DNA from: Caldisphaera lagunensis DSM 15908
GTDB lineage: Archaea > Thermoproteota > Thermoprotei_A > Sulfolobales > Acidilobaceae
Assembly: GCF_000317795.1 (NCBI RefSeq)
Contig: NC_019791.1
Coordinates: 1 to 64,000, forward strand
Direction: 5' to 3'
Length of the DNA stretch: 64,000 nt
In this document: piece after piece, positions 38,984 through 50,937 of the stretch
How the letters are laid out: every line of letters starts with the position of its first letter
How positions within the stretch are numbered: the stretch's first letter is position 1
Notes under the pieces: model-generated
The model's database searches: none
What the model saw: only the letters and a program-made list of their open reading frames with translations
What the model was told of the DNA's origin: nothing
Made by a program: the position numbers and the translations under genes

Positions 38984-39655
38984 TTGAGCGTAGATCCACG
39001 TAAAACTTTGCCAACAAAAATTAACTTAATTAGATTAAAAAGAGATTATGCTATGATTAAAAGAGTTAGAAGAATAATGGAAGAAAAAAGAGAAGTACTG
39101 CTCCATTACATAAGAAGCACTGCCGAAGATTATAATAAATATCAAAACGAAGTATTTAAGAACATTACAGATTTGTTTACAATGTATTATAGAGGAGTTG
39201 CAAGTGAAGGTTTATCAAAAGTTGACCTTTATGCCTCATCAATTCCCGAGAGCTTTACAATAAAAACTGGTTTAAGAGTATTATATTCAGTAAGAACTCC
39301 CACATTTACTCCAATTATGGATACAATTGCAATACCATCATTACCGCCTGGAAGTTCTCCTGATTTAACAATATCATATATAAAGTTGAAGGAATTATTA
39401 CCATCAATTCTTAACTTAGCTATGTATGAGGAAACAATATTAAGGCTTATTGATGAGCTTAAAGAAACCCAAAGATTAATAAATGCTTTAGATTATGTTA
39501 TATTACCTAGCTATTTAAGAACCATAAAGTATATAAATGCAGTATTGGATGAGCGCATGAGAGAAGACTTTGTTAGGTTAAAGATCTTAAAAAGAAAACG
39601 CGTTGAACAAGAAGAAAAAGCTAAGGTTGTTATGGAACAACAATCCCCACGATGA
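38984..39655 (+). CDS. atpD: A-type ATP synthase subunit D
   Basis: 223 residues, mostly two long helices, with the subunit D start LPTKINLIRLKRDYAMIKRVRRIMEEKREVLL and the later RLINALDYVILPSYLRTIKYINAVLDERMREDFVRLK. Subunit D forms the central stalk that transmits rotation from the membrane ring to the A3B3 head. The start is a TTG. It stands apart from other ATPase genes, which are not in the window. Its end overlaps a convergent small gene by 26 bases. Confidence 0.96.
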   Translation: MSVDPRKTLPTKINLIRLKRDYAMIKRVRRIMEEKREVLLHYIRSTAEDYNKYQNEVFKNITDLFTMYYRGVASEGLSKVDLYASSIPESFTIKTGLRVLYSVRTPTFTPIMDTIAIPSLPPGSSPDLTISYIKLKELLPSILNLAMYEETILRLIDELKETQRLINALDYVILPSYLRTIKYINAVLDERMREDFVRLKILKRKRVEQEEKAKVVMEQQSPR

Positions 39656-39881
39656 TTAATATAATCCCTAATGTCAGCAATAGTTTTAAGAATCCTGATG
39701 GTGTAAGGTTCCAAGTGGCTCTAAACGCCTTTACCAATAATATTATTACCCCTGTTATTACAAACGTTAACAATATAGCCATTCCTGCAAGCGCTATGTA
39801 ATAGCTGAGTCCATTAGCTGAAACTCCAGGTATGTGGGAAACAATTGTACCAAATATTTGTTGTAAAGCCTGAAGAGACAT
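39630..39881 (-). CDS. Small two-helix membrane protein
   Basis: 83 residues (ATG at 39881 behind AAGGTGG) with two hydrophobic helices (about 25-52 and 62-83). It faces atpD, but it lacks the glycine-rich pattern of the ATPase proteolipid, so it is not annotated as one. No family is recognised. Confidence 0.55.
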   Translation of the reverse strand: MSLQALQQIFGTIVSHIPGVSANGLSYYIALAGMAILLTFVITGVIILLVKAFRATWNLTPSGFLKLLLTLGIILIIVGIVVP

Positions 39882-39953
39882 ATTTTTACCACCTTCATTA
39901 ATTAGCATATATATTTAAAAAACTTAAAGCGAAATGGTTAGTATTACTTCCTT

Positions 39954-42900
39954 TTAAAATTTGTAAAAATAAGAAACTGCATATTTATATTTCTTTAAGA
40001 AATCTTCCATAATTTCATTTCTGCTATTTTTCTTAGCAATAACAACTATATAACCAAAGTCCATAATTTTTTCCTCTTTTCCTTTGTTTATATAAGTTAA
40101 AATTTTTCTATAGGCCTCATTTGAGAATTTAGGAGTTATTCCCGTTATTTTTCTATACTCTTTTTCAACCTCTTCTAGAGATTCTATAGAATTAACTGCA
40201 ATTGTAACATTTCCTTTACCAAATGTATTTTCCATATCAACTATGGTTTGAGCTATTTTGTTAGCACAATCTTTTAGTGGAGTGCATTCTATTACATTTC
40301 CTAGATCTTTAATTTTTTTATAATTGAATTTTTCCATATCCTTTGTAAGGTATTCTTCAACTTTTTTCTTAATAAATGGGTCAACGCTATTTTGTCCATT
40401 TCTTGATCTAATAGCTATTGCCTCTTCTATTATCTTTTGCATATCTTCAATTTTCTGAATTTCTCTCTTTGAAAATCTTAAAACCTCATTAAATATATCT
40501 TCATCTAAGAATTTTGTTTGCCTTTTCTCTCCAGGAGATAATGATATTAATGCTATTAAATTCTTGTTGTAATCAGATGAAAACGAATTATTGCAATATT
40601 CTTTTGATATGTTAAGGTTTTTATTTAATGCTATAAATGCTTGGTATTTAATATTGTTAACTTGGCACAATGCTGTAGAAACATCTATAGGTTTTAACTC
40701 ATTATTTATCTTTTCAAGGCCTCCTTTTGTTAAACAATAATCTTTTTCAAAAGGTATACACCAACCATATATCATTTCTATCTCTTTTTTGTTAGCCTGA
40801 TACGCTTTTATTGGACCTTTAATTAATGAATAATCTAATACTCCTGCATTCCTTAAAACATCTAAATATCTTACAGAAGCCCATTCATCTTTACTTAATA
40901 CATCTAAAGGAACAGGTATTATTTCTACCTTTCCTGATTTTTCAGAGAAAAACGATCTATAAGCAAGTATTTTATTGTAAATTTTCAGAAGTTCACTAGC
41001 TTTTATGGAAGATCTTTGTGCAAGAGCTTTCCTTCTCAATATATCATTAGGATTAAAAAGAGTTATTATCTTGGCTTCATTACCATCTCTACCAGCTCTC
41101 CCTGACTCTTGATAGAAATCCTCTATGCTTTCGCTAGGCATGCTATGTATTATCCATCTAATATTTGGTATATCAATACCCATACCAAAAGCCTTTGTAA
41201 CTACAGAAATCCTCGGTCCGTTACTATTTTTTGATAATTCCATTAATTGTTTTTCTATTTCTCTTCTTTTATGTTCATTTAATTTTCCATGATAGAATAG
41301 AACTTCCTCATTAAGCTCATCAGATAACCATTTTGACAAATTCTCAGCATTAAACCACCAAGCATTTTTGCTTTCAACATATGGAGCAAAAATTAAACCT
41401 AACCATGGTTTGTTAAATTTATCAGCCCATTCTTCTAGATTTCTTACATTTTCTGCTAAAATCTTTAATCTTTCTTCTCCACTATCTGGAACTGCAATAA
41501 CATCGAACTTAAGCTCATCTCTTATAGTTGGGGCGATTAAAACCAAAGGTTTACCATTGTAATCTATATTTAGTGTTTCTTCATTTTTTAAAGATATATG
41601 ATGAGTTTCTGCATCATTAGGATTATAACCTAAACTTTCTAAAATATCATTTATTACATCCTTCGGTGCGGTTGCTGTTAAAGCTATTATAGGCGGATAT
41701 CCATTTTTTCTAATTTTTTGTAGTTTTGTTGCCATATATAAATAACTTGGTCTAAAGCTAAAACCCCATTTTGATAATGTATGCGCTTCATCCAATACAA
41801 TTAAAGATGGTGAACCATTTTCAAATATATCATCTATTAATTCTGTTCCAAACCTTTCTGGAGTTATATAAAGGAAATCTAAGAAACCAGCCTTGGTAGA
41901 CTTGATTGCATCAATTCTTTTGCTCAATGGTATGCTAGAATCTATATATAACGTTTTGAATCCCTTAGCCTTTGCATTTTCAACTTGATCATGTATCAAT
42001 GCTTTAAGAGGTGAAACAATTATTGCCGATCCTCCAAAGCCGGAATCCTGAAGAACTTTAGATATGATTTGGAATATAGCACTTTTTCCTGCTCCAGTAG
42101 GCAAAATTACGATTTCAACTGTTGGGTTTCCTTTTTCAAGCATTTTGAAAAATGATGATATGCTTAATTGTTGATATGGTCTTGGTTTTGATTTCCATAA
42201 CTTATTGAAATAAGAATTTACCTCATCTAATAAGTAATTATAATTTATTTCATTTTTAATGAATACATCTTCCTTAGGTTCGACCAATTCAATAAATTCT
42301 CTATTTTCATGCAAGGAAAGAGCTCTTGATATAGCTTTAGATCCATATTTTGATGAAAGCTCTAGTGTTCTATAAATATAAAAATCATAATTTCCAATAT
42401 TTTTTATTGTTTTATTTAAATTGTTTATCATCCTTTCTGGAAATACTAATACAACATTGCTTGCAACAAATGAAGTCTCAGGTAAAAATAAGTTCTTTTC
42501 ATATGAGATTACTCCAACCTTATTTCCATTAAACCAATAATCCATATCATTGGGGTTTTCAATATAAACACCATCTATTATATTACTTATGTTTTTGGCT
42601 AAAGCATTGTTTGGTGTAATAATTAATCTTTTTCCTTCATATCCAAGAAGTTTTAAAGCAGCTTCAGACGCTTTTACTGGATCCTTTATATCTGAAGAAT
42701 ATGAGATCACCTTTACTTTAGTTTTTGTAGGTCCATTTATATTAAGAGACTTTGATATTTCATAAGGAATAAAACTTTCTGTAAATAATTCATTAAATTT
42801 AATATTAATTGAATCATTTATTTCTATTCCTCTAGGATCATTTGATGTTAGGCTATTTTTACAAGGAATCGATGCTCCTATATTTATTAATTCTTTTTCC

Positions 42901-44171
42901 CATATAGTTAGACCATGCATAAATAGACAATCTTCATTGCTTCCAATGCAATCTAATTTTGCCTTGTTAATTTTTTCTACGCAATCTAAATCCCAAGGTT
43001 CTACTTGATAACCATCTTTTAGTTGCTCATTATTTTTAATTATATTACCTACAATTAGATATGGTAATGATTTATCAAGTTCAATACCTCTCCTTATTAA
43101 CGCTGCTTTTGTTATATCTCCATGTCTTTCTTTTAAAATTGCCATAGATATCCTTGCTGCGTAATCCCATTTATTTCCATTTAATGGTAATGGCTTTATT
43201 GTATAAGGTTTCCAAATTGGATAAATTAGTCTAGGTTTATCCGATATTATAACATAACTTTCCTCATTTTTTGGTAATTGTACATCTGGCAATGTTTCTG
43301 CATATTTTACATCATCAGGCATATTTTTCCAATCTACATTAACGAGTTCAATTATTTTCTTTGATAACAACGCTATTGTATAAACAGCTTTTGCTAAACT
43401 GGTTGAAAATGGTATCATTAAATGATAATATGCAGATACTATTGATGTTTCAGAATCAGGAAAGGCTATAGAATAAAGATTTTTTACATTTATAGCATTA
43501 TAATTATCAAACTTTGTTTCGCAATCCCCCCAATACATGATTTTCGATGGTTTTAATGAGGATAATAAAAGTTCTAAGCTTTCTTTAGGGTCCATTATTC
43601 TCCATTCAGATCCCTTAGGAGGTATATCAATTTCTAAACCATCAACATAAGCTGATATTTTATCCTTAGAACAATATAATGATATAATATCTGCTTTTTT
43701 TGATAAAATGGGTTCTTTACCGAGCTTTATAGATGCTTCTTTTTCCCATTTGGATATACCTAATGCAACGAGGGCATTTCTTGATTCTAACAATGATTCC
43801 GATGAAACGCTGCATCCTTTTGATGATAGCATTATAACATCTTCATATAACCCAAGTTTAGGTAAATATAATGATAAGTTTTCTGAATCTTTTGGGCAAT
43901 CGTTTAATCTTCTTATTAACTTACTCAATCTGATTACATCAAGATCCTCTTTATTTTCTAAAATTAATTTGGCATAGTTTGAAAAATAGTTTTTTGATGT
44001 AGTTATATACCATTCTATTGTATTAATGTATATCTTTTTTAAAAATTTTTTTGGAATTTTTTTATTTTGGAATAAAATTTTTTTAGAATTATAATATAAT
44101 ATATATGAAATTATTCCAATTATTATAATTATAGTTGCTATAGTAATGATCATCGTAAGCAATTTTTGCAC
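39954..44171 (-). CDS. Giant RecQ-like helicase with membrane anchor
   Basis: 1405 residues. A strongly hydrophobic segment (about 7-27) starts the protein. Residues 160-280 are unassigned. Four cysteines at 397, 408, 415 and 437 could bind metal. Residues 485-600 resemble a degenerate RecA-like lobe (GKRLIITPNNALAKNI, then KVGVISYEKN). The helicase core is intact: Walker A PTGAGKS (691-697), DEAH (794-797), the RecQ-type aromatic loop KWGFSFRPSY, and motif VI QESGRAGRDG (1021-1030). The last 370 residues are unassigned. It probably unwinds DNA near the membrane. Archaeal RecQ-like proteins of this size and with an anchor are not familiar to me. Confidence 0.82.
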   Translation of the reverse strand: MQKLLTMIITIATIIIIIGIISYILYYNSKKILFQNKKIPKKFLKKIYINTIEWYITTSKNYFSNYAKLILENKEDLDVIRLSKLIRRLNDCPKDSENLSLYLPKLGLYEDVIMLSSKGCSVSSESLLESRNALVALGISKWEKEASIKLGKEPILSKKADIISLYCSKDKISAYVDGLEIDIPPKGSEWRIMDPKESLELLLSSLKPSKIMYWGDCETKFDNYNAINVKNLYSIAFPDSETSIVSAYYHLMIPFSTSLAKAVYTIALLSKKIIELVNVDWKNMPDDVKYAETLPDVQLPKNEESYVIISDKPRLIYPIWKPYTIKPLPLNGNKWDYAARISMAILKERHGDITKAALIRRGIELDKSLPYLIVGNIIKNNEQLKDGYQVEPWDLDCVEKINKAKLDCIGSNEDCLFMHGLTIWEKELINIGASIPCKNSLTSNDPRGIEINDSINIKFNELFTESFIPYEISKSLNINGPTKTKVKVISYSSDIKDPVKASEAALKLLGYEGKRLIITPNNALAKNISNIIDGVYIENPNDMDYWFNGNKVGVISYEKNLFLPETSFVASNVVLVFPERMINNLNKTIKNIGNYDFYIYRTLELSSKYGSKAISRALSLHENREFIELVEPKEDVFIKNEINYNYLLDEVNSYFNKLWKSKPRPYQQLSISSFFKMLEKGNPTVEIVILPTGAGKSAIFQIISKVLQDSGFGGSAIIVSPLKALIHDQVENAKAKGFKTLYIDSSIPLSKRIDAIKSTKAGFLDFLYITPERFGTELIDDIFENGSPSLIVLDEAHTLSKWGFSFRPSYLYMATKLQKIRKNGYPPIIALTATAPKDVINDILESLGYNPNDAETHHISLKNEETLNIDYNGKPLVLIAPTIRDELKFDVIAVPDSGEERLKILAENVRNLEEWADKFNKPWLGLIFAPYVESKNAWWFNAENLSKWLSDELNEEVLFYHGKLNEHKRREIEKQLMELSKNSNGPRISVVTKAFGMGIDIPNIRWIIHSMPSESIEDFYQESGRAGRDGNEAKIITLFNPNDILRRKALAQRSSIKASELLKIYNKILAYRSFFSEKSGKVEIIPVPLDVLSKDEWASVRYLDVLRNAGVLDYSLIKGPIKAYQANKKEIEMIYGWCIPFEKDYCLTKGGLEKINNELKPIDVSTALCQVNNIKYQAFIALNKNLNISKEYCNNSFSSDYNKNLIALISLSPGEKRQTKFLDEDIFNEVLRFSKREIQKIEDMQKIIEEAIAIRSRNGQNSVDPFIKKKVEEYLTKDMEKFNYKKIKDLGNVIECTPLKDCANKIAQTIVDMENTFGKGNVTIAVNSIESLEEVEKEYRKITGITPKFSNEAYRKILTYINKGKEEKIMDFGYIVVIAKKNSRNEIMEDFLKKYKYAVSYFYKF

Positions 44172-44225: not shown

Positions 44226-45170
44226 TTAAACATAAACGACTATTGACATGTTTGTGATTAAGAATTTGTAAAGCTTCCTTACAGTTGATTCCTTTATTGA
44301 AACAGTTTCAGCTATCTCTTTTTGACTAATATCGTGACCATTTAATCTTGATATTAAATATACTGTTGCTGCAGCAATTGCCTCTGGCTTTTTACCATAA
44401 AGTGTTTTACCAGATGACAAAGATTCTTTTACAAAGCTTATTGATTGTTCTATGATTGTCTGGTTTAAATTTAATGAAGATACTATTCTATTTATATACG
44501 TAACAACTCTAGTTAACATTCTATCTTTGCTATCAGTATAACCCATATTTTCGCTTTCTATAAATCTATATTTGGATAAAATGCCTAAATCGTTGAGTTT
44601 CTTCTTACCTTCCCATAATTTATTACTATCTATTTCCATGAACTCTTCGATTTCAGATTGAGATATGTTTAGATTATATAGTTCAACAACTTTAGCAAAT
44701 GCAGCAGCAATTATCGCTTCTTTATACTTACCAACGGACCCCCCATTCTTTTCTATATATTCGTGAAGAATCAATCCAAGTGTTTGAGAAGCGCTCCTGG
44801 GTAAATTAAAATATTCGCTAAGTTTATTTGCTAAAGAGAACATAGCTATTTGAGGCATTTCTGATCTAGAAGTTGCATGTCTCATGCTTATTCTTCTACT
44901 ATTAAACGATTTTAAAAGATTTCTGGATTTAGGGGGTGTAAATACTAAAGCACCACTTCCTTTATCATGTCTTAACAGGGTTTCTGGCTGAGAAGCTCTT
45001 TCTACACCTTTTGTGTTCTGAATTCCTTTTTCATTATATGATCTCCACTCTGGTCTATCAGCTAATAAATTTTCATCTACAACTAAACCACAATTTTGAC
45101 AAACCAATTTACCATCAATAGTTGTTACTAAATTATCAGAACTACATCTTGGGCATTTCAAGAAATTCAC
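44226..45170 (-). CDS. tfb: Transcription initiation factor TFB
   Basis: 314 residues. An N-terminal zinc ribbon (Cys6, Cys9, Cys24, Cys27) is followed by the B-reader/linker with RPEWRSY and two cyclin-like repeats (from about 110 and 210). This is archaeal TFIIB, which bridges TBP-DNA and RNA polymerase. Its ATG overlaps the stop of gar1 as ATGA, so the two are translationally coupled. Crenarchaea often have several TFB genes; only one is in the window. Confidence 0.94.
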   Translation of the reverse strand: MNFLKCPRCSSDNLVTTIDGKLVCQNCGLVVDENLLADRPEWRSYNEKGIQNTKGVERASQPETLLRHDKGSGALVFTPPKSRNLLKSFNSRRISMRHATSRSEMPQIAMFSLANKLSEYFNLPRSASQTLGLILHEYIEKNGGSVGKYKEAIIAAAFAKVVELYNLNISQSEIEEFMEIDSNKLWEGKKKLNDLGILSKYRFIESENMGYTDSKDRMLTRVVTYINRIVSSLNLNQTIIEQSISFVKESLSSGKTLYGKKPEAIAAATVYLISRLNGHDISQKEIAETVSIKESTVRKLYKFLITNMSIVVYV

Positions 45171-45448
45171 CTCTTATAATGCCGGTTCCCAAATCTTTTA
45201 ATCTCCACAAAATATATATCATTAAGATTGATGTTCTCACTTAAAGGCTTAATAACAGCATATGGCTTTTCTACATTTCCTATTATATCAAAAATTTTTC
45301 CTACTAAATTAAATTTGCTATCATAAACATTACTGTTTAATTTTATTTTAGTATTTTTATTATCTATGCTTACTATAATGTAATTTAGCACCTTATTTTT
45401 AGGTTTTCCAAGTATTTCTAGCTTTCTTTTGTTAGGCGGAACCGGCAA
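45167..45448 (-). CDS. gar1: H/ACA RNP component Gar1
   Basis: 93 residues. The Gar1 core is seen in VYDSKFNLVGKIFDIIGNVEKPYAVIKP, flanked by short basic ends. Gar1 is part of the H/ACA pseudouridylation RNP with Cbf5, Nop10 and L7Ae. The gene pair gar1-tfb is a known arrangement in archaea and the four-base overlap is clear here. Confidence 0.9.
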   Translation of the reverse strand: MPVPPNKRKLEILGKPKNKVLNYIIVSIDNKNTKIKLNSNVYDSKFNLVGKIFDIIGNVEKPYAVIKPLSENINLNDIYFVEIKRFGNRHYKR

Positions 45449-46951: not shown

Positions 46952-48130
46952 ATGAGTCATAAAGAATGGCCATTAGATGAGAAACCTTTACTCATATTTT
47001 GGGAAACAACAAAAGCTTGTGGTCTCGCATGTAAACATTGCAGGGCCGAGGCAATTCACAATCCTTTGCCAAATGAATTAAATAATGAAGAAGGCAAAAA
47101 ACTAATTGATCAAATTAGTGAATTTGGCAAGCCCTCGCCAATTCTTGTCTTTACTGGAGGAGATCCTTTATCTAGAAAAGATATTTGGGATTTAATTGAT
47201 TATGCAAATAAAAAAGGAGTTGTAGCAGCTTTATCTCCTAGTGTAACTCCTTTGTTGAATGATGATGCTATAGAAAACATTGTTAATCATAAAATATCAT
47301 CTGTATCAATAAGCCTTGATTCACCTTATCCTGAAATTCATGATAAAATTAGGGGAATAAATGGTACATGGAATAGAAGCATTGAATACATTAAAAAGAT
47401 GGTTGATAAGGGAATCAAGGTTCAGATTAACACAACAGTTATGAGGTCTACTGTAGAAGGATTGCCTGATATGGTTTCATTGTTAAAAAAGCTTAATATA
47501 AGCGTTTGGGAAGTTTTTTATTTGATACCTGTTGGTAGGGCTAAGTTTGAAGAAGACCTCACAAAAGAAGAGTGGGAAGATGTAGGTGCTTTTTTATATG
47601 AGGCTAGCAAATATGGTTTAACAATAAGAACAACTGAGGGGCCTATGTTTAGAAGGATTGCCTTATTGTATAGAAATCTTGAGATTAGAAATATTGATTA
47701 CAATAAAGAAATTCTTCATGGTGAACTTTATTATAACCTAGTTAGAAGGCTAAGAGAAAATATGGGAGAGCCTAATAAAGAAACAAAGGCTGAAACTTTT
47801 AGAACGAGGGATGGAAGAGGAATAGTATTTGTTTCTTATGACGGATATATTTATCCAAGTGGATTTTTACCATATCCTGCAGGTAATGTAAGGAAACAAA
47901 ATATTGTTGATATTTATAGGAATTCCGAATTGTTTAAAAAACTAAGGTCAGCTCAATTTAAAGGAAAATGTGGTTTATGTGAATTTAGAAATATATGTGG
48001 AGGAAGCAGGGCAAGGGCATTTTCATATACTGGAGATCCTTTTGCTGATGATCCAGCATGCTCATATAATCCAGGAGAATATGATAAAATCTTGGGAAAA
48101 TATGGCCTTAGTTATGATGATTTAAGGTGA
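46952..48130 (+). CDS. ahbD: Radical SAM/SPASM protein, probable heme synthase AhbD
   Basis: 392 residues. The radical SAM cluster motif is CGLACKHC (Cys23, Cys27, Cys30), followed by the GGDPLSR region. A SPASM-type C-terminus has CGLCEFRNICGGSRARA and DDPACSY. As first gene before the siroheme decarboxylase and AhbC-like genes it most likely is the AhbD-type enzyme that oxidatively decarboxylates Fe-coproporphyrin to heme b. Close relatives with other functions exist, so the exact step rests on context. Confidence 0.8.
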   Translation: MSHKEWPLDEKPLLIFWETTKACGLACKHCRAEAIHNPLPNELNNEEGKKLIDQISEFGKPSPILVFTGGDPLSRKDIWDLIDYANKKGVVAALSPSVTPLLNDDAIENIVNHKISSVSISLDSPYPEIHDKIRGINGTWNRSIEYIKKMVDKGIKVQINTTVMRSTVEGLPDMVSLLKKLNISVWEVFYLIPVGRAKFEEDLTKEEWEDVGAFLYEASKYGLTIRTTEGPMFRRIALLYRNLEIRNIDYNKEILHGELYYNLVRRLRENMGEPNKETKAETFRTRDGRGIVFVSYDGYIYPSGFLPYPAGNVRKQNIVDIYRNSELFKKLRSAQFKGKCGLCEFRNICGGSRARAFSYTGDPFADDPACSYNPGEYDKILGKYGLSYDDLR

Positions 48131-48135
48131 AGCAA

Positions 48136-49098
48136 ATGGACCAAATAGATAAAGATATTTTAATGGAGTTGCAATATAATTTTCCATTAAATTCTAGACC
48201 GTATGATGAAATAGCTGATAAGCTAGGAATAAAATTAAATGAGTTATTAAATAGAATAAATAATCTAAAAAATGAAGGAATAATAAAAAGAATAGGATTT
48301 TATTATAATTTTAGATCCCAAGGAAATGAGGCAGCTTTAATTGCTTTTGAATCCGGTGAAAATTATAAAAAATTAGCTGAAATAGCTATGAAGGATCCAT
48401 TAGTGACTCATAGCTATCTAAGAAATCACCCTATTTATAATGTTTGGATTGTTGCAAAAAGATCTAGTCATGATGAATTAATTAAGTTAGCAGAAAGAAT
48501 GATGAAGGATTCAAATTCAAAGTCCTATGTTGTTTTATTATCAAAAAGGACATATAAATTAAGCGTAAAATTTGATTTATATAATGGAATTTCAAAGGCT
48601 GGCAGATATGCATTGTTACCAAAGAATCCACCTTTGCTAAGAGATTTGGGTATTGATAAAGATTTTCCATTATCAATTAAAAGCCTTCCAATAAATGAAA
48701 AGCCTTATGAATATATATTAAAGAAATACAACATGTCAGAAGAAGAACTTGAAAACTCATTGAAAATGTTATTGGATAAAGGAGTTTTAGCAGATCCTGG
48801 AGCAGCATTGGATGGAGAAAAACTTGGGTTTAAAGAAAACGGAATGGCAGTTATGGAACCAGATAATAATGAGGAATCAATATGTGAGTGTGCAGCGTCT
48901 ATGAGCTTTTCTACCCATGTAGTTTTAAGACAATCAATACCAGAAGGTAGATGGAAGCATGTTAGTTATGCAATGATACATGCAACTGATAAGGAAAAAA
49001 TAAATAAAATGGTGGAAGAGCTAAGGAAAAATTGCAAGCCAAAAGATATTATGGTTATCTACAGCCTAGAGGATTTAAAGCCAGGTGTAATAAGATGA
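48136..49098 (+). CDS. ahbAB: Fused siroheme decarboxylase AhbA-AhbB
   Basis: About 320 residues made of two homologous halves, each with a Lrp/AsnC-like winged helix and a ferredoxin-like domain: the first starts MDQIDKDILMELQ, the second near PYEYILKKYNMSEEEL. GRYALL in the middle and the RWKHVSYAMIHA region in the second half are typical of siroheme decarboxylase subunits. AhbA and AhbB are usually separate and form a heterodimer that converts siroheme to 12,18-didecarboxysiroheme; here they are one chain. The start at ATG 48136 follows AAGGTGA, which contains the previous stop. The four-gene order supports the function. Confidence 0.87.
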   Translation: MDQIDKDILMELQYNFPLNSRPYDEIADKLGIKLNELLNRINNLKNEGIIKRIGFYYNFRSQGNEAALIAFESGENYKKLAEIAMKDPLVTHSYLRNHPIYNVWIVAKRSSHDELIKLAERMMKDSNSKSYVVLLSKRTYKLSVKFDLYNGISKAGRYALLPKNPPLLRDLGIDKDFPLSIKSLPINEKPYEYILKKYNMSEEELENSLKMLLDKGVLADPGAALDGEKLGFKENGMAVMEPDNNEESICECAASMSFSTHVVLRQSIPEGRWKHVSYAMIHATDKEKINKMVEELRKNCKPKDIMVIYSLEDLKPGVIR

Positions 49099-50288
49099 TA
49101 CCAATAACTGTTATGGTAACAGGGGAAGGGACTGTATCTTCAAAGATAAAGGGTCATTATAATAAGGATAATCCATCAACTTTTACTAATGAGTTAAAAC
49201 CTGCAGTATTTTGGAATATAACATATAAATGCAATTTAAATTGCGTCCATTGTTATATAGATGCGTCATCTAAAATCAATAGAGAAGAATTAAGTAAAGA
49301 AAAATTAATCGAGGTTGCAAATGAAATAGTTAAATTGGAATTACCATTGATAGTATTTACTGGTGGAGAGCCTCTTTATAGGAAAGAATTCTGGGATGTT
49401 TCTGAAGTTTTAGCTAATAGAAAAAAGCCTAAGCTAACTCTTAGTACAAATGGTACATTAATTACTGAAGAAAATGCTAAGAAGTTAAAGGAATTAGGAT
49501 ACATGTATATAGGTATTTCTTTAGACAGCATCTACCCTCAAAATCATGATAAATTTAGAGGGTATGATGGAGCTTTTTCATTAACAATGAAAGGTATTGA
49601 AAATTCAATAAAATATGGAATAGATGTAGGGATTAGAACAACAATAACTAAATATAATGTAAACGAAATACCAGCAATGATAGATTTTGTTGTAAAAAAA
49701 GGCATAAGAAGAATTTCATTATATTTATTAGACACAATAGGTAGGGCAGTAAAAATATCATCTGATCTGCCAACAAAGGATCAGCTAATAAGTTTAACAA
49801 ATATTCTTATTGAAAAAGCAAAGGAATACAAATCAAAAATTGAGATAGAAATTGTTAGAGGAAACTTTATAGGAATTTATGTTGCAGACAAAATTTCATC
49901 AAATAAAGAGGATTTCTTAAAATATTTAAAAATGATTCAAGCTCAGGGAGATTGTGGAAGGAAAACTATTAGCATTTATCCAGATGGAACAGTTAGGCCA
50001 TGCCAATTTATAGATGATTATATAATAGGTGATTTAAGAAAACAAAAATTGGAAGAAATTCTTCAAATTGCAAATCCAAATCTTGAAAAGTTTATCAACT
50101 TATCAGAAAACTTAGAAGGGGAAAGATGCAGCAAATGTGCATTTAAGAAAATATGTGGTGGTGGGAGTAGGGGGAGGGCTAAGGTAATAAATAATAACTT
50201 TTGGGGTGACGAACCTTTATGTTTCATAGATTATAATGATATTGCAAAAAGGTGGGGGATTATTGACTCACATTCCTTTATACATTGA
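49095..50288 (+). CDS. ahbC: Radical SAM protein, probable didecarboxysiroheme deacetylase AhbC
   Basis: About 397 residues. The cluster motif CNLNCVHC (Cys46, Cys50, Cys53) follows an N-terminal MVTGEGTVSSKIKG region that resembles AhbC/NirJ proteins, and the C-terminus has CSKCAFKKICGGGSRGRA. It should remove the acetate side chains of 12,18-didecarboxysiroheme to give Fe-coproporphyrin III. The start ATG overlaps the stop of ahbAB as ATGA. An upstream frame to 49032 is a shadow. Assignment relative to ahbD rests partly on similarity and partly on operon context. Confidence 0.82.
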   Translation: MIPITVMVTGEGTVSSKIKGHYNKDNPSTFTNELKPAVFWNITYKCNLNCVHCYIDASSKINREELSKEKLIEVANEIVKLELPLIVFTGGEPLYRKEFWDVSEVLANRKKPKLTLSTNGTLITEENAKKLKELGYMYIGISLDSIYPQNHDKFRGYDGAFSLTMKGIENSIKYGIDVGIRTTITKYNVNEIPAMIDFVVKKGIRRISLYLLDTIGRAVKISSDLPTKDQLISLTNILIEKAKEYKSKIEIEIVRGNFIGIYVADKISSNKEDFLKYLKMIQAQGDCGRKTISIYPDGTVRPCQFIDDYIIGDLRKQKLEEILQIANPNLEKFINLSENLEGERCSKCAFKKICGGGSRGRAKVINNNFWGDEPLCFIDYNDIAKRWGIIDSHSFIH

Positions 50289-50937
50289 TTTTGATGGTTT
50301 GAAAGTTTTGGTAATAGGAGGAGGTAATGTAGGCGCAAGGAGATCCATAACATTTCTTGAATCAGGGGCAATTGTAACTGTTGTAGCATCATATTTTAAT
50401 GAGAGCTTATTGAAAATTAATGATAAAAAACTAAAACTAATAAAAATGGAAATTAAAAAACCAGAAGACTTAAATGAACTTATAGAAAACAATGATTTAA
50501 TTGTTTTAACAACAGACAATGAATTTATCAATAATGGAATTTATAAAATTGCAAAAGAAAAAGGCAAGTTAATAAATAACGCAACAAATTCTTCAATGGG
50601 TAATGTTATTGTTCCTTTTAGAAAGAAAATATATGATAATTTGGAGGTTGCAGTAACCAGTTTAGGATATACTGGAATAGCTGCAAGAAGAAGCTTAGAA
50701 AAAATTGAAAATTGCTTAGAAAATGATATTGAAATCAAAACCCTTTATGATTCTATGAAAGAATTTAAAAAATACATTAAAGAAAAAATTAAAAATCCAA
50801 AAATAAGGTATAGGTTATATTTTGAAGTAGAAAAGGATGAAATTTATGAAAAATATGTTAAAGAAGGAAAATTAAATGAAGCCATAGAAAGGGCAAAAGA
50901 AATAATAAAAAATTATATAAAAGATATGGATAAGTAA
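50263..50937 (+). CDS. Precorrin-2 dehydrogenase/ferrochelatase (siroheme synthase N-domain)
   Basis: About 225 residues. A Rossmann NAD-binding motif VLVIGGGNVGARR opens the protein, followed by the NNATNSSMGNVIVPF region and a helical C-terminal domain, as in Met8/SirC. It oxidises precorrin-2 to sirohydrochlorin and may insert iron, feeding the siroheme-to-heme genes upstream in the operon. The start TTG at 50263 follows GGTGGGGG and overlaps the AhbC gene by 26 bases; an upstream frame from 50236 is unlikely. No uroporphyrinogen methyltransferase is adjacent. Confidence 0.86.
   Translation: MTHIPLYIDFDGLKVLVIGGGNVGARRSITFLESGAIVTVVASYFNESLLKINDKKLKLIKMEIKKPEDLNELIENNDLIVLTTDNEFINNGIYKIAKEKGKLINNATNSSMGNVIVPFRKKIYDNLEVAVTSLGYTGIAARRSLEKIENCLENDIEIKTLYDSMKEFKKYIKEKIKNPKIRYRLYFEVEKDEIYEKYVKEGKLNEAIERAKEIIKNYIKDMDK

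Follow-up and report, generated by a model that had tools for sequence, protein, structure and literature searches.

The window analyzed here comprises the first 64 kb of the genome of Caldisphaera lagunensis DSM 15908, a single contig of 1,546,846 bases, and carries on its minus strand, at 39954–44171, an open reading frame of 1405 residues with a GTG start at 44171. C. lagunensis belongs to the Acidilobaceae, to which all counts given below for "the family" refer. From sequence comparisons and predicted models, we consider it likely that this gene encodes a RecQ-type DNA helicase that is tethered to the membrane and descends from an exonuclease–helicase fusion, with a new architecture that includes a pseudo-exonuclease. 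The gene is probably transcribed as a separate unit, because a gap of 54 bases separates its start from the upstream gene for TFB and because it is preceded by T-rich sequence and, some 30 bases before the GTG codon, by a TATA-like stretch, both recognized by eye. The gene and the parts of its product are as follows.

39954–44171, minus strand: the whole gene (1405 residues, GTG start at 44171), a core gene of the Acidilobaceae
44067–44168, minus strand: N-terminal helix, residues 2–35, uncharged and hydrophobic from 7 to 25 and then lysine-rich (AF2 helix, hydropathy)
43692–44066, minus strand: helical linker domain, residues 36–160, with the C92/C120 pair (model, alignment)
43302–43691, minus strand: predicted pseudo-DnaQ (RNase H-like) domain, residues 161–290, with the C167/C217 pair and no DEDDh residues (model, profile match)
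42723–43271, minus strand: first probable degenerate RecA-like lobe, residues 301–483, with C408/C415 and no P-loop (model; weaker than the second lobe)
42252–42722, minus strand: second probable degenerate RecA-like lobe, residues 484–640 (structural match to DDX21)
40992–42251, minus strand: intact RecQ-type helicase core, residues 641–1060 (Pfam, motifs, fold match)
40302–40991, minus strand: tail with a RecQ4-like order in the model, residues 1061–1290 (modeled secondary structure, match to 5lst)
39957–40301, minus strand: modeled C-terminal alpha/beta domain, residues 1291–1405, with invariant C1296/C1302

Modules of the protein

RecQ helicases are genome guardians in bacteria and eukaryotes. 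In the window protein, Pfam recognizes DEAD (residues 685–839) and Helicase_C (926–1030), and we found motif 0 (Q667), Walker A (PTGAGKS, 691–697), DEAH (794–797), an aromatic-rich loop (798–810), and motif VI (QESGRAGR, 1021–1028). These motifs are conserved throughout, with Q667 and the loop residues W802, F806, R807, and Y810 invariant in 17 sequences. The predicted model of residues 636–1405 (predicted local distance difference test, pLDDT, 85; predicted template modeling score, pTM, 0.82) matched the folds of DrRecQ, BLM, WRN, and RECQL4 with Z of 29–33 (32.8 for DrRecQ, 31.9 for WRN), and Foldseek of the core model gave E 1.4e-24 to a bacterial RecQ. The NCBIfam models, however, scored below their curated cut-offs (178.7 against 219.8 bits for TIGR00614 and 209.1 against 640.2 bits for TIGR01389), which points to a divergent RecQ-type core rather than a canonical RecQ. 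Judged by its sequence, the helicase core is thus divergent and intact, and the preliminary description of this DNA, which was made from the sequence without database searches and had reported an intact RecQ-type core, is upheld by the Pfam domains, the motifs, and the fold match to DrRecQ.

Residues 7–25, which have a mean Kyte–Doolittle value of 2.79 and not a single charged residue, lie within a helix that the AF2 model extends from residue 2 to 35. This helix resembles a signal anchor, and by the positive-inside rule the body of the protein is predicted to be cytoplasmic. The anchor helix is present in the window protein, in its congeners, in roughly half of the Acidilobaceae, and in all four distant homologues described below, which suggests that it is ancestral. 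In the sister species (L029), the first 120 codons contain a single start codon, which precedes the helix, so the helix there is no artefact of start choice. The membrane tether proposed in the preliminary description is accordingly supported as a predicted anchor helix. A downstream start, or absence of the hydrophobic segment in orthologues, had been named there as grounds for doubt; no usable downstream start was found in L029, while the segment does lack counterparts in several orthologues and the N-terminal half is lost in one genus.

Neither Pfam nor NCBIfam gave a meaningful match before residue 660 of the window protein, and the N-terminal half was approached through its relatives. A genome scan identified three homologues of 1368–1414 residues in other Thermoproteota (L056, L057, and L058), and a fourth of 1515 residues (L163, genome G449) belongs to another class of that phylum. 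All four share one layout: an N-terminal hydrophobic helix, DEDDh exonuclease motifs, a middle part, a RecQ core, and a tail. The exonuclease motifs of L056 read LDIETE, GHNVYKHD, and HRADEDA, and Pfam RNase_T, with a cut-off of 24 bits, scored 26.3 for L056, 23.2 for L058, and 19.6 for L057. All four distant homologues have the five DEDDh catalytic residues, and none of the 27 Acidilobaceae proteins does; at the sequence level, the WRN-type combination of an active DEDD exonuclease with RecQ is therefore found in L056, L057, L058, and L163, and not in the window protein or its 26 orthologues.

The N-terminal halves of the family and of the distant homologues were nevertheless matched by hhalign (96.6%, E 6.7e-10, 446 columns). 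The exonuclease part alone gave P 0.0012, compared with 0.46–0.87 for reversed and shuffled controls, and the helical part alone matched weakly (P 0.16). In the AF2 model of residues 1–680, built from Acidilobaceae members only (pLDDT 87, pTM 0.84), residues 162–277 show strands in the order that an RNase H-like fold would have and lack the stretch with the second exonuclease motif; the order predicted for residues 161–290 is b1-b2-b3-a-b4-b5-a-a-a. A degenerate DnaQ-like exonuclease domain, devoid of catalytic residues, is thus probable for residues 161–290 from profile comparison and modeling, although direct fold and family searches gave no significant match, and the faint DnaQ-like resemblance noticed earlier at 160–280 is backed by homologues with intact DEDDh residues, the profile match, and the modeled strands.

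The middle part, residues 301–640, probably consists of two degenerate superfamily 2 (SF2) RecA lobes without a P-loop, as judged from the model. Its second lobe, residues 484–640, matched the C-terminal lobe of DDX21 (Z 10.0, 3.4 Å over 119 residues), and residues 301–638 matched both lobes of DbpA, XPD, and Brr2 with Z of 8.3–9.9 (8.3 for XPD 3crv); structural Z values below 8 are common by chance. The sequence of residues 301–640 contains neither a Walker A motif nor an iron–sulfur (Fe-S) cysteine quartet, and Pfam Helicase_C_2 did not match there. Since the lobes of XPD, DEAD-box proteins, and Brr2 match about equally well, a DinG/XPD origin is not distinguished from the others. The preliminary description had placed a degenerate RecA-like segment at 485–600 and compared it with DinG/XPD; this segment corresponds to the second lobe and the degenerate SF2 character is probable, while the modeled two-lobe module is longer and resembles XPD no more than DEAD-box proteins or Brr2.

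Behind the core, the preliminary description had left about 370 residues as an unassigned tail. In the model, bridging helices, a part resembling a winged helix, and, at the C terminus, an alpha/beta domain make up this tail, whose layout is RecQ4-like, with two bridging helices around an insert that contains a winged helix. A bridging helix (1058–1079) is followed by a winged-helix-like, beta-rich insert (about 1085–1211, with C1169/C1193), a return helix of 35 residues (1224–1258), and a further helix (1260–1276). Human RecQ4 has the same order of bridging helix, winged-helix insert, and return helix after its core (PMC5490261), and its structure 5lst aligned over 479 residues at 4.7 Å, the most among the PDB matches listed; the long return helix and the last helix on HD2 are also shared. 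Unlike RecQ4, the window protein has an extra C-terminal domain and a different N-terminal part, and the zinc loop of three cysteines and one histidine was not found; the tail holds no four-cysteine set. Pfam RecQ_Zn_bind, RQC, and HRDC did not match the window protein at E 10, and RecQ4, an accepted RecQ member, likewise lacks a canonical RQC (PMC5490261).

Ten cysteines are conserved among the 27 orthologues and fall into five sequence-local pairs, 92/120, 167/217, 408/415, 1169/1193, and 1296/1302; the first eight occur in 24–25 of the 27 and the last two in all. Of the four spaced cysteines pointed out previously, C408 and C415 are conserved (25/27); C397 recurs in just 11 of the 27 orthologues, and C437 shows no conservation. 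Two Tiamatella-type proteins lack all eight cysteines of the first four pairs, and cysteine totals are mostly even. In the model, C167 stands at the end of the first strand, the position of the first catalytic aspartate of DnaQ, with C217 placed after the fourth strand; one disulfide may thus occupy the former exonuclease active site.

Distribution and history

The RecQ-type helicase is a core gene of the Acidilobaceae. It was found in 43 of 48 family genomes; the five without it are 55–77% complete, and every family genome searched with a completeness of at least 78% carries it. When the order was sampled evenly (197 genomes), only two genomes from outside the family had the protein. A RecQ family model run over 147 genomes gave no score above its curated cut-off; where the match was contiguous, Acidilobaceae reached about 180–201 bits, and genomes outside the family stayed at or below about 75 bits except G098, which holds the homologue L058. 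These low scores, together with the presence in the family, point to a gene that belongs to the core set of a single family, while its order shows no other evident RecQ. Replacement of a lost repair gene was considered and rejected: NurA was present in all 24 Acidilobaceae genomes tested and an XPD-type helicase in 20 of them, so the protein is no stand-in for either. A viral origin was likewise discarded, as the viral matches were generic RecQ-like helicases only.

Orthologues are 1318–1459 residues long throughout the family. Genus g5 has a short form of 816–904 residues (L032, L123, L124, and L125) that starts near the second degenerate lobe, with the first 530 or so residues gone, among them the anchor and the exonuclease-like part. 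Genome G018, of genus g2, carries the helicase (L037, 5393–9570, minus strand) as two open reading frames of 397 and 992 residues, divided near residue 380, perhaps by a sequencing error or perhaps as a real split.

Between the window protein and L029, the ratio of nonsynonymous to synonymous substitution rates was 0.03 for the RecQ core, 0.04–0.05 for the tail, 0.12–0.14 for the N-terminal modules, and 0.31 for the anchor; the values for the N-terminal modules show that purifying selection maintains the dead modules. In a tree of RecQ cores built by a quick method, the archaeal proteins form one clade (96 in the Shimodaira–Hasegawa-like approximate likelihood ratio test), apart from the sampled bacterial and viral RecQs, and within it the forms with intact exonuclease (99) and the short forms (100) each form a clade. 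The Tiamatella-type proteins diverge close to the root of the family, with unsettled support for their placement, and the eight cysteines missing there may have arisen after that branch split, a gain in all but one Acidilobaceae genus. The simplest history would begin with an anchored, active exonuclease–helicase, continue with the loss of catalysis in the Acidilobaceae and the addition of cysteines, and end with the loss of the front half in g5. The reverse course, in which catalysis was acquired, is less likely, since the intact motifs match those found in DnaQ proteins generally.

Likeness to known systems

Among the closest known systems, with no claim of common descent, is the human Werner-syndrome protein, WRN, which joins an N-terminal DnaQ-type exonuclease to a RecQ core in a single polypeptide of about 1400 residues, as the distant homologues clearly do; the window protein shares with it the fold of the RecQ core. 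Unlike WRN, it has an anchor, a two-lobe module between the domains, and no RQC or HRDC match, and the exonuclease is predicted to be inactive in the Acidilobaceae. Bacterial ExoDinG and pExoDinG carry a DEDD-type exonuclease, active or pseudo, ahead of SF2 helicase lobes, and pExoDinG is a precedent for a pseudo-exonuclease on a helicase (PMC11981726); the lobes here differ in lacking a P-loop and Fe-S cysteines, and an intact RecQ core stands behind them. Two bacterial fusions of about 1700 residues, L095 (2035–7140, plus strand) and L120 (3079–8112, plus strand), join a DnaQ exonuclease, DinG/XPD-type lobes, and a full RecQ in the same three-module order. They differ from the window protein by Pfam-recognizable XPD-type lobes and a canonical RecQ zinc domain, no anchor was seen in them, and their cores group with bacterial RecQ. 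The word "RecQ" does not occur in the review of DinG-like proteins (PMC11981726), and the open-access literature on DnaQ–RecQ fusions and archaeal RecQ yielded no report of the present architecture.

Neighborhood, competing explanations, and cellular role

Comparison of 20 family loci revealed no neighbor conserved across the Acidilobaceae; only TFB upstream recurs, in two genera, and a 92-residue gene in one. Upstream of the helicase lies a Gar1–TFB pair (44226–45448, minus strand), and the order TFB–helicase occurs elsewhere only in one other Acidilobaceae genus (L022, L024). Directly downstream, at 39630–39908 on the minus strand, is the gene for the 92-residue protein, which has two membrane helices and adjoins the helicase in Caldisphaera only; it had no match in Pfam, PADLOC, or, at E 10, the PDB sequences, and its candidacy as the pilin CedA1 was dropped for want of the latter. 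Farther away, at 46952–50937 on the plus strand, two radical-SAM proteins match the PADLOC viperin models and stand beside a siroheme-decarboxylase-like protein and a siroheme-synthase-like reading frame, so that this cluster most likely serves alternative heme synthesis and not defense. A divergent 1409-residue neighbor in one g2 genome proved to be an unrelated subtilase.

Several observations weigh against a tethered helicase derived from an exonuclease fusion. When the N-terminal model was compared with PDB and BFVD by Foldseek, no match was significant (best E 0.02); no DnaQ chain was among the matches listed, though such chains may lie outside that list, and the exonuclease part was recognized in the window protein only via its relatives and the model. 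The SF2 lobes are seen in structure alone, at Z of 8–10, and the profile comparison of the middle part with the distant homologues was weak (P 0.017); because Foldseek alone gave no significant match, the lobes are probable and not proved. The anchor is absent in several Acidilobaceae orthologues and in genus g5 the entire N-terminal half is gone, which indicates that the tether is usual but dispensable in evolution. The membrane location and the activity are predictions from sequence and models.

The missing Foldseek match, and the failure of family models to match directly any of 15 Acidilobaceae N-terminal halves, would fit an N-terminal half that arose as an unrelated scaffold with neither exonuclease nor helicase ancestry, the intact homologues having acquired their exonuclease separately. 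We regard this as unlikely, since position, length, and order of parts are shared with the intact homologues, the profile matches cover both the half and the exonuclease part with clean controls, and the model shows an RNase H-like strand order. For the conserved cysteines, a metal site or Fe-S cluster is a less probable but serious alternative to disulfides: XPD/DinG helicases carry an Fe-S cluster, and eight of the cysteines disappear together in the Tiamatella-type proteins. Disulfides are preferred because the cysteines form local pairs over several domains with no quartet, because their totals are mostly even, and because crenarchaeal proteins, including cytosolic ones, are rich in disulfides (PMC3177088).

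A role at the membrane with incoming DNA, which the preliminary description had offered as one possibility beside damaged DNA, would have the enzyme unwind or pull DNA that enters via the conjugation-like Ced pilus system. An anchor would indeed place it on the cytoplasmic side of the membrane, CedB and CedD are reported in Acidilobales (PMC11868833), and the next gene on the same strand encodes a two-helix membrane protein of the size and type of CedA1. That protein, however, is confined to the genus and matched nothing in PDB, Pfam, or PADLOC, no neighbor is conserved across the family, several members lack the anchor, and neither linkage to Ced nor a matching distribution was found, as Ced is reported beyond the Acidilobaceae, in Sulfolobales (PMC11868833), which lack the helicase gene, and that gene is absent from the other families of the order; an import helicase is distinctly improbable. 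Relationship to DpdF or other RecQ-like anti-phage proteins is more improbable still. The PADLOC models for DpdF, PsyrT, and Shango (SngC) do match the helicase core, and viral and bacterial contigs do hold RecQ-like helicases that carry nuclease domains. All matches, however, are confined to the RecQ-like core and the stretch just past it, DpdF reached 130.2 bits against a cut-off of 550, no Dpd match was found among ten neighboring genes, and near-universal presence with no conserved or defense-type neighbors is unlike a defense gene. On a bacterial and a viral contig (L114, 1345–5070; L156, 3852–7313), RecQ-like helicases stand behind DUF559/DUF2726 nuclease-type domains.

For the tethered helicase with a pseudo-exonuclease, sequences and models make a role in genome maintenance most likely. 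Only the RecQ core would hydrolyze ATP, moving 3'–5' along DNA on the cytoplasmic side of the membrane, and the dead exonuclease and dead SF2 lobes would act as DNA-binding or regulatory modules, with the presumed disulfides stabilizing the protein in a hot-living archaeon. Its task would be housekeeping at forks and recombination intermediates, and not defense or dedicated import. A bolder reading, which we put forward tentatively as quite possible, holds that the Thermoproteota own a membrane-anchored Werner-type exonuclease–helicase, composed of anchor, DEDDh exonuclease, degenerate second helicase, RecQ core, and RecQ4-like tail. In the Acidilobaceae, on this reading, the exonuclease became inactive and a disulfide came to occupy its active site, while the gene turned into a universal core gene, so that a tethered helicase with pseudo-enzymes built in would carry out essential DNA work at the membrane.

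A RecQ-type helicase that is near-universal in the Acidilobaceae and apparently tied to the membrane is unusual for this class of enzyme. The distant homologues, with exonuclease motifs that appear intact, resemble a membrane-bound version of the Werner-syndrome protein and are open to direct testing, and the decay series from intact to dead to lost exonuclease is a natural experiment on the role of the exonuclease in Werner-type proteins.

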